Of a stretch of 64,000 bases of DNA, positions 27,727 through 29,603 are shown piece by piece (the first letter of the stretch is position 1; each line of letters starts with the position of its first letter). The notes under the pieces were generated by a model. That model was given only the letters and a program-made list of their open reading frames with translations, was not told the origin of the DNA and did no database searches. A program made the translations under genes and the position numbers. Origin of the DNA: Archangium sp. (lineage in GTDB: Bacteria; Myxococcota; Myxococcia; Myxococcales; Myxococcaceae); assembly GCA_030695565.1 (NCBI GenBank), contig JAUYRZ010000084.1, positions 1 through 64,000 on the forward strand, read 5' to 3'.

Positions 27727-28353
27727 TCAGGGGGGCAGGCTGCGCACCGCCGCTGCGATGTCAGCCCGCCAGGTGCCGAGCCCGGCAGACGCGCGGCGGT
27801 AGAGCACCACCTGCCCCTGCGCGTTGAACACCACCGTGTCGTGTTTCACCGCGGCCGGGTCGAGCGCCTTCCACGCAACACGTTGCGCCGATGCATCTTT
27901 CAAGATGGGCGCAGACAACCGCCCCACGAAGTCACTCGCGTTCGAATCACTCAACGCCACGAACTGCACAGCGCGGTTTTCTGCTTTCAGCTCCGTCCAC
28001 AACGACTCGGCGGTCCCAGCCTGGGACCGGCAGACGGTTCAAAAACCTTCTAACAACACCACCACGAGGGGTCGGCCGGCGAACGCCGACAGCCCATAGG
28101 TCTGCGAGAACCGCGGCGACTGCGGCTGCACATCTTCCAACTGCCAGGTCGGGTACATCGCCATCGCGCCGACGCCCGCATCGTCATTCGCTCCCGCGTC
28201 AGTGCCCGCGTCAACGTCGCGAGTGCCGGCGTCGCTTCGGGTGAAGCCGGCGCCTGCGTCGAGTTCACCTGCGCTGGGTACGCCGCAAGCAGCCACCAGC
28301 GCCACCGCGGCGGTCAACACCACGCGGTGGGTCCAACCCATCTGGTTCTTCAT
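27727..28353 (-). CDS. Predicted selenoprotein: redoxin-like lipoprotein with UxxC
   Basis: 208 codons read through one in-frame TGA (28039-28041). Strong GAGGAG precedes the ATG. The signal peptide ends ALVAAC (lipobox), followed by a DAG linker to ~65. The thioredoxin-like domain starts YPTWQLEDV, and the first beta-strand GRPLVVVLLEGF runs straight into TGA-Thr-Val-Cys (U105xxC108), the position of a CxxC in AhpC/TSA and TlpA-like proteins. The frame then continues uninterrupted for 103 codons through VQFVALSDSNASDF and VVFNAQGQVVLYRR. A perfect hairpin follows the TGA. It overlaps the upstream gene by four bases. The alternative is a nonsense-mutated pseudogene. Confidence 0.8.
28011..28029 (-). 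promoter_or_regulatory. Candidate bacterial SECIS hairpin
   Basis: On the transcript CGGTCCCA-GGC-TGGGACCG, a perfect 8-bp stem with a 3-nt loop starting GG. Seventeen nt separate the UGA from the loop, as in E. coli fdhF (about 18). It lies within the coding frame, as bacterial SECIS elements do. Confidence 0.75.
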
Positions 28354-29603
28354 CGGAGCTCCTCTGTGAGTACGTCGTTGAACTTGAACACGTCTTCACC
28401 GACCAGCCGGACCAGCTTGCTGCCGTCGGCGCGGAAAATTTCCACCACCGGCAGACCCGCGGCGCCCGGCAACGCGGCTTCCATCGCCTCGGCGCTCCAG
28501 TCAGACGCGTCGATCCGTTTGATGAGCACCCGTCGCTCCGCGCGTTCGAACTCGGCGAGCAGCGGTTCCAGCTTCTGGCAGGGCGCGCACCAGCTCGCGC
28601 CGTATTCCACCAGCGTGAGCTGACCCGCAGCGCCAGCGGTGGCCCGCGGCGCAGGCGGCGCGATGACCTCGAACGCGCCACCGATGCCGACGAAGAGACC
28701 CGGCCCGGGGATGAACTGGTAGCCCGAAAGCGCCTGGGTCAGCGGCAGCCTGGCCGCGACGAAAGCCCGCACCGGCCCGGCGATCTGCACCTGCGCGGTG
28801 GGCGTCAGGGTGAGCCACACGCCGCCGGTGTTGGTGCTGTCGAGCCGGCCACCCGAGAGCGGGTCCACCTCCGAGCTCTGCGCGCGCCACTGCGTTTCCA
28901 GACCCAACGAGAATGACAAACGCCCCGACACCACCGGGCCGAACGCGAGCCCGCCGGTGCCACGCAGCTCCGGGCCCCAGCGGAAACCGTCGGCTGTGTC
29001 GTTGAGGCCCACCCGCAAGGTGCCCGAGGCGAACAACGAGAACAAGGCAGGCAACGTCAGGCGCACGTCGAGATCGGCCAGGCCCCAGAACACCCCGCGG
29101 CCGAGCGTGAGGTAGCGCGCCGTCTCGAGCACCGCGGCCTCACCGCTGCGCGCGATGGACGGGCCCGTGGGAAACGCGCTGCCCAACGCGCCCGAGAGCC
29201 GCACCTTGCCGAAACGCCACGCATACCGGGCCCGCGCTTCCAGGTCGCCCAGCCCCACTTCACCGCGGCTGCCGGCCACCACGTCGGTGACGGTGATGGC
29301 CCCGAAGGGCAACTGGAGATCCACCCCGAAGCCGCGGCCCTGCCCAAAACCCACCTGCAGCGTCGAGAGAATGAGATCCAACCGGGCGCCGGTGGGGTCG
29401 ACCACCTGCTGTCCATCAGCCAAGCGCGACGGGAAAGGCACGTAGCCGCCCAACACCTGCGCAGACACCAGCCAGGCCGCGTCGCGACCGCTGTCCAACC
29501 CGGTCTCCACCGCTCCCGACGGGAGCGCGGGGTTGACTCAGGTCGTGCACTGGGCGCTGGCGCGGGTCGCCGCCAACACCCCGAGGAGCAGGAAGGTTCG
29601 CAT
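28350..29603 (-). CDS. Predicted selenoprotein: beta-barrel/thioredoxin fusion with CxxU
   Basis: 417 codons with one in-frame TGA at 29538-29540. Signal peptide MRTFLLLGVLAATRASA is followed by Gln-Cys-Thr-Thr-TGA (C19xxU22) at the mature N-terminus. A beta-strand-rich region ~50-325 (VLGGYVPFPSRL, GVDLQLPFGAITVTD) looks like an outer-membrane barrel of transporter type. A C-terminal thioredoxin domain carries WCAPC (338-342). A GTG five codons upstream may be the real start. A GTG at 29510 would give a protein without signal peptide, which fits poorly. Its stop overlaps the next selenoprotein gene. Fusion of barrel, CxxU and thioredoxin is unusual. Confidence 0.75.
29511..29527 (-). promoter_or_regulatory. 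Candidate bacterial SECIS hairpin
   Basis: On the transcript CGCTCCC-GTC-GGGAGCG, a perfect 7-bp stem with a G-first loop, again exactly 17 nt after the UGA. Confidence 0.72.

Follow-up and report, generated by a model that had tools for sequence, protein, structure and literature searches.

Two overlapping genes, here called A and B, occupy positions 29603 to 27727 on the minus strand of the window, the whole 64,000-nucleotide stretch of an Archangium sp. contig that was analysed; all coordinates of the two genes and their features refer to that strand. Gene A (28350..29603) encodes, in order, a signal peptide, the sequence AQ-CTTU, a long Cys-free region predicted to form an outer-membrane beta-barrel, and a C-terminal thioredoxin domain with a WCAPC motif. 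It is open over 417 codons when an internal TGA is read as selenocysteine (Sec, U), and it has full-length homologues. The TGA is codon 22 (29538..29540) and supplies the second redox residue of CTTU, which lies at the mature N-terminus; 395 further codons lead to the TGA stop at 28352-28350. Gene B (27727..28353) encodes a lipoprotein signal (LVAAC), a low-complexity linker rich in Asp, Ala and Gly, and a redoxin domain (PF08534) with a UTVC motif. Its 208 codons are likewise open with TGA as Sec; the TGA is codon 105 (28039..28041), the first position of UTVC, and is followed by 103 codons before the TGA stop at 27729-27727. The stop of A and the start of B share a 4-nt ATGA (28350..28353), as read directly from the sequence. 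The tandem of overlapping genes, each with a TGA in a redox motif, that a first-pass annotation had described is thus present in these frames. A sigma-70-like promoter was looked for and none was found.

Conservation of the pair and decoding of its TGA codons

A was searched for in 99 relatives, and a second scan covered 84,980 species genomes. Among the relatives, full-length A was found in the window genome and in G006, G009, G051 (two copies) and G057, each copy with B adjoining. The second scan returned 10 loci, with B directly after A in all 10. Six of these are the same records as genomes numbered separately (L070-L073 and L075 belong to G057, G051, G006, G009 and the second copy of G051, and L076 to G162) and are therefore counted once. 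With the window, the pair stands at 11 loci in Myxococcota, and the neighbourhood survey of this phylum that had been proposed finds A and B together at every one of them. The A homologues are full length, share 35-57% identity, and carry TGA or a Cys codon at the Sec site. The ATGA overlap is kept at nine of the 11 loci; the genes are separated by 27 nt in L077 and by 18 nt in L079. No flanking gene other than A and B is conserved across the loci, the exceptions being protein-kinase-like matches and the near-identical flanks of two sister species.

The two redox sites vary together. TGA occurs in both genes at eight loci (the window, L070-L073, L077 from Deltaproteobacteria, and L078-L079 from Kofleriaceae) and Cys in both at the remaining three, L074 from Labilithrix with CTTC in A and CPFC in B, and L075 and L076 with CASC in A and CTFC in B. 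None of the 11 loci has a mixed pair. The column of A is invariantly Cys or Sec, with TGA eight times and TGC or TGT three times, and that of B has TGA eight times and TGC three times, so the expectation that the TGA positions would be kept as Cys or Sec is borne out. Trees of A and of B have two clades in common, one made up of the Cys copies and one of L077-L079, which includes the Kofleriaceae. Since the Cys/Cys copies form one branch, the joint switch between Sec and Cys may have been a single event. Genome G051 carries both a Sec/Sec copy (L071) and a Cys/Cys copy (L075), so the Cys form cannot be put down to a loss of the Sec machinery. Sequence and comparison support A and B as products of overlapping genes that are passed on as a unit.

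Each TGA in the window is followed by a SECIS-like hairpin. The hairpin of A, GCTCCC-GTC-GGGAGC (29526-29512), has a 6-bp stem and a 3-nt loop; that of B, GGTCCCA-GGC-TGGGACC (28028-28012), has a 7-bp stem and the loop GGC. In both, the loop starts 17 nt past the TGA and its first base is G. The first-pass annotation had called the hairpins matching and identically spaced, which is correct for spacing and geometry but not for their sequences, which differ. The predicted minimum free energies (MFE) are -12.9 and -13.5 kcal/mol for A and B, respectively. The published bacterial SECIS model asks for a stem of 4-16 bp, a loop of 3-9 nt with G in its first two places, a distance of 16-37 nt from the TGA and an MFE of -7.5 or lower (PMC13188914), and both window hairpins fall within these bounds. 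A generic hairpin alone is no evidence, since 1058 of the 4675 TGA triplets on both strands of the window and the ten other fetched loci pass a looser SECIS definition. The strict arrangement, a stem of at least 6 bp with a 3-nt loop at exactly 17 nt, follows only 22 of the 4675, many of them the TGA codons of the A and B genes themselves; it is thus a rare arrangement that is found here twice in adjacent genes.

The informative comparison is that between TGA and Cys genes; hairpin z-scores from compositional shuffles of long, 49-nt pieces were uninformative. At the 11 loci, all 16 TGA genes have the 20-nt hairpin (-10.0 to -13.5 kcal/mol) and all six Cys genes are without it (-1.3 to -3.0 kcal/mol), that is, eight of eight TGA copies and none of three Cys copies for each gene. 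The Cys versions of B read RSN where the Sec versions read RSQ, and the RSQ codons build the stem. Covariation taken alone is weak evidence for the hairpins: that of B shows one compensatory pair change and several one-sided ones (95.8% of cells are paired, against 27-52% when the alignment is slid), and that of A shows no compensatory pair across its homologues. The genome also encodes tRNA-Sec (69 bits), SelB (701 aa), SelA (548 bits) and SelD (375 bits), each above its curated cut-off.

TGA is normally a stop, and the assembly is a draft in 134 contigs, so true stops or sequencing errors followed by pseudogene remains might be considered. This reading is highly improbable, as the same TGA sites recur in eight separate assemblies, Cys stands there in the remaining copies, hairpins occur in the TGA copies only, and the Sec machinery is complete. 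Conservation of the protein on both sides of the TGA at eight loci likewise led to the rejection of a stop codon, a frameshift or a pseudogene. Decoding of both TGA codons as selenocysteine is thus well supported by comparative sequence evidence.

Predicted structures of the two proteins

For A, AlphaFold2 predicts (mean pLDDT 79) a beta-barrel at residues 44-314 (28662..29474) and a thioredoxin domain at residues 329-417 (28353..28619) with WCAPC at 338-342, in agreement with the barrel-thioredoxin fusion with CxxU and WCAPC that had been proposed and was to be checked by structure prediction. The top Foldseek matches are FapF (5o67, E 1e-12) and the COG4313 channel (4rl8, E 7e-12), with target TM scores of 0.73-0.80. 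PF13557 is matched by two of the 11 A homologues (best E 3.4e-5) and not by the A of the window. The thioredoxin domain matches PF00085 in all 11; in the window the score is 32.4 bits (E 9.5e-8) against a cut-off of 23.5. Residues W338, C339, C342, L384 and P385 are invariant in the 11 copies, the Pro being at the usual thioredoxin position. Every mature A has exactly four Cys or Sec residues, which make two redox pairs; the CTTU-type pair is at the mature N-terminus of every copy, and the barrel wall is free of Cys in all 11. Residues 1-27, which cover the surroundings of CTTU, have a pLDDT below 50, and the model does not place CTTU relative to the barrel. These results support A as an outer-membrane barrel of the 12-stranded type that has a thioredoxin tethered to it and a Cys-Sec pair at its mature N-terminus. 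In the model, the thioredoxin domain comes after the final strand of the barrel and should be periplasmic.

The annotation of B as a lipoprotein redoxin with UxxC is also upheld. The lipobox Cys (Cys23 of LVAAC, 28285..28287) is invariant in all 11 homologues, and each copy has, apart from this lipid Cys, one redox pair and no other Cys or Sec. The window B scores 27.8 bits with the Redoxin model PF08534 (cut-off 26.6), and AhpC-TSA is matched as well. The redoxin domain is modelled with a pLDDT of about 95; it matches ResA (E 1.5e-8) and the DsbE-like protein 3gl3 (Z 17.5), and ResA, DsbE-like proteins and peroxiredoxin Q/Bcp are about equally close in fold. By profile alignment, the UxxC of B falls on the CxxC of TlpA (1jfu). 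A conserved cis-proline is absent from the usual site opposite the redox pair and KHDT is conserved instead, as judged by inspecting the alignment; the redox chemistry may therefore differ from that of TlpA. The redoxin_TUGYCR model (NF053656) is matched weakly by all 11 B proteins, the window B scoring 36.6 bits, below the cut-off of 100. The N-terminal domain of selenoprotein P (PF04592) is matched weakly by three of the 11 (best E 0.0055); its absence from the top structural matches of B carries no weight either way. By such weak matches, selenoprotein P and redoxin_TUGYCR would be the nearest named relatives. The evidence supports B as a predicted lipid-anchored redoxin of the TlpA/ResA type with a Sec-Cys pair. 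An envelope peroxidase or peroxide sensor, in which Sec attacks and A supplies the reductant, would suit the Redoxin and AhpC-TSA matches and a fold roughly equidistant from ResA and peroxiredoxin Q/Bcp, but UxxC at the CxxC site of TlpA is the pattern of a disulfide oxidoreductase, and the peroxidase is considered unlikely.

A possible relay at the outer membrane

The preferred reading is that the two genes form a self-contained envelope selenoprotein cassette acting as a thiol-selenol relay, to which a probability of roughly 0.55 is given. The first-pass annotation had also proposed an envelope redox relay, with four redox motifs; the count is three (CxxU, WCAPC and UxxC). The operon, the fusion and the lipoprotein redoxin of that proposal stand, and the relay itself is an interpretation of these parts. 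We infer electron transfer in the periplasm and at the outer membrane, as well as the partners and substrate of the relay, as follows. The three redox pairs would form a chain of thiol-selenol exchange on the periplasmic side of the outer membrane. Its electrons would be supplied from the inner membrane via a membrane protein of the DsbD/CcdA type; the genome has a DsbD_TM match of 183 bits. Electrons would pass between B and the thioredoxin domain of A, whose WCAPC would in turn serve the Cys-Sec pair at the barrel mouth or plug. This pair could then reduce or oxidise something in transit through the barrel, or reset the plug. The order B, thioredoxin of A, CTTU would be the simplest arrangement.

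The crystal structure of the COG4313 channel shows its first ~14 residues reaching into the barrel from the periplasmic side (PMC4493636), and an N-terminal segment that enters from the same side likewise plugs FapF (PMC5557850). The Cys-Sec pair of A lies within about the first five mature residues and, by analogy with these plugs, probably sits where the barrel opens to the periplasm or inside its lumen. The same plugs, together with the N-terminal position of the pair in every copy, are consistent with a redox-gated outer-membrane channel, in which the state of the plug Cys-Sec pair, set by the thioredoxin and B, opens or closes the pore. Against this, the plug segment of A is of low confidence in the AlphaFold2 model, and the barrel wall has no second Cys able to form a gating bond; the gate is a tentative alternative. 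Equally tentative is a broader selenium-dependent redox circuit across the outer membrane, with the plug pair switched by the tethered thioredoxin and the lipoprotein partner so that pore opening or chemistry would follow the redox state of the periplasm.

Selenol-thiol pairs bind soft metals, and a cassette for the detoxification or import of soft metals, metalloids or organic electrophiles would use CxxU for binding or reduction and the thioredoxin and redoxin for regeneration. The SAO selenoprotein operon handles organometals (cited in PMC13188914). This reading is quite unlikely, however, since there is no metal-resistance gene or regulator among the conserved neighbours, and metal-site residues beyond the Cys-Sec pair are not obvious.

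The pair puts selenium into a predicted outer-membrane barrel with a thioredoxin of its own, in Myxococcota. Work on thiol redox chemistry usually concerns the periplasm and the inner membrane, and the locus raises the question of how an outer-membrane protein would be supplied with reducing power. The unit is small, with two genes, and occurs naturally in Sec and Cys forms, in one case within a single genome, which makes testing why Sec is used practical.

Related barrels and redoxins, and known systems

A search of the phylum with a profile of A found additional barrel-thioredoxin fusions beyond the 11 loci. In a second branch, the mature N-terminus bears either UxxU, with two TGA codons spaced by three residues, or CxxU: UAGU with two TGA in G011 and G028, CAGU in G023 and UPGU in G163. 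These fusions are at L105 2382 and L106 4276 on the plus strand, and at L107 5099 and L108 6067 on the minus strand, counted on the reverse complement. They have a hairpin of -11.8 to -13 kcal/mol with its loop 17 nt past the second TGA. A distant Myxococcota family in G168 and G169 has only Cys (CATC); the G168 copy (L103, 980-2515) is a barrel-thioredoxin fusion that ends in the thioredoxin, and the G169 contig (L104, 2585) ends before the thioredoxin region. No recognisable B was found beside any of these six barrels; A thus need not depend on B, which counts against the relay. Lipoproteins related to B that have only Cys, in turn, stand alone in G187 and G169 with no adjoining A (L121, 6191-6997, minus strand; L122, 5339-6418); their KDDFYIY or KDEFYIY motif is one that we take to resemble selenoprotein P. 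From these fusions without B and lone relatives of B, the N-terminal pair in barrel-thioredoxin fusions is probably the older theme, and the pairing with B the feature of one clade.

Two further observations concern more distant proteins. Barrels without a thioredoxin that are weak relatives of A (L017 and L020) have CSICGCGDPLL or CSVCACGDPLL after the signal peptide, and an N-terminal CxxC may be widespread in barrels of this type. Selenoprotein genes of the redoxin_TUGYCR type with TGA occur in nine relatives (L093-L101); a barrel motif was not seen beside them in the three loci searched.

A review from 2026 catalogues 119 families or subfamilies of prokaryotic selenoproteins (PMC13188914). 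Redoxins and outer-membrane barrels are among them, the barrel-thioredoxin architecture is not, and Myxococcota are absent from the text of that catalogue. Neither A nor B of the window passes any NCBIfam model, and among their homologues the matches are confined to TUGYCR and general models of the thioredoxin type. A literature search did not find a paper on the A-B pair, which does not fully exclude a prior mention. A and B thus apparently represent two unnamed selenoprotein families in a selenoprotein operon of a known kind, and add two families missing from the current catalogue (PMC13188914) and the NCBIfam models.

Each part has known counterparts. The barrel of A resembles the channels of COG4313/PF13557 (Pput2725, FapF) in its predicted 12-stranded-type fold, but shares 13-16% identity with them and adds the C-terminal thioredoxin and the N-terminal Cys-Sec pair. 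Sec in an outer-membrane barrel is known from the TonB-dependent receptor FCYXU (NF049945) and the MtrB/PioB-like barrel GSU2204 (NF041027) (PMC13188914); A belongs to another barrel family, without a match to either model at E <= 1, and no thioredoxin is named in theirs. B shares the fold and the position of the redox pair with the TlpA/ResA/CcmG oxidoreductases, but has Sec for the first Cys, KHDT, no conserved cis-proline and a partner barrel gene. With redoxin_TUGYCR (NF053656), found in several of the same genomes, it shares a Sec redoxin domain, UxxCR and a lipoprotein-like start, and differs in its motif (UTVCRS rather than UGYCR) and in having a barrel partner. It resembles the N-terminal domain of selenoprotein P (PF04592), by a weak match, as a Sec-containing thioredoxin-like domain, but is a bacterial lipoprotein with a single Sec. 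Adjacent selenoprotein genes that probably serve one pathway are also found in the grd, prd, SAO and Tso operons (PMC13188914). Unlike the operons listed there, the A-B unit joins a predicted outer-membrane barrel-thioredoxin to a lipoprotein redoxin, and its conservation suggests that the two proteins are redox partners at the outer membrane, in a combination not described before.
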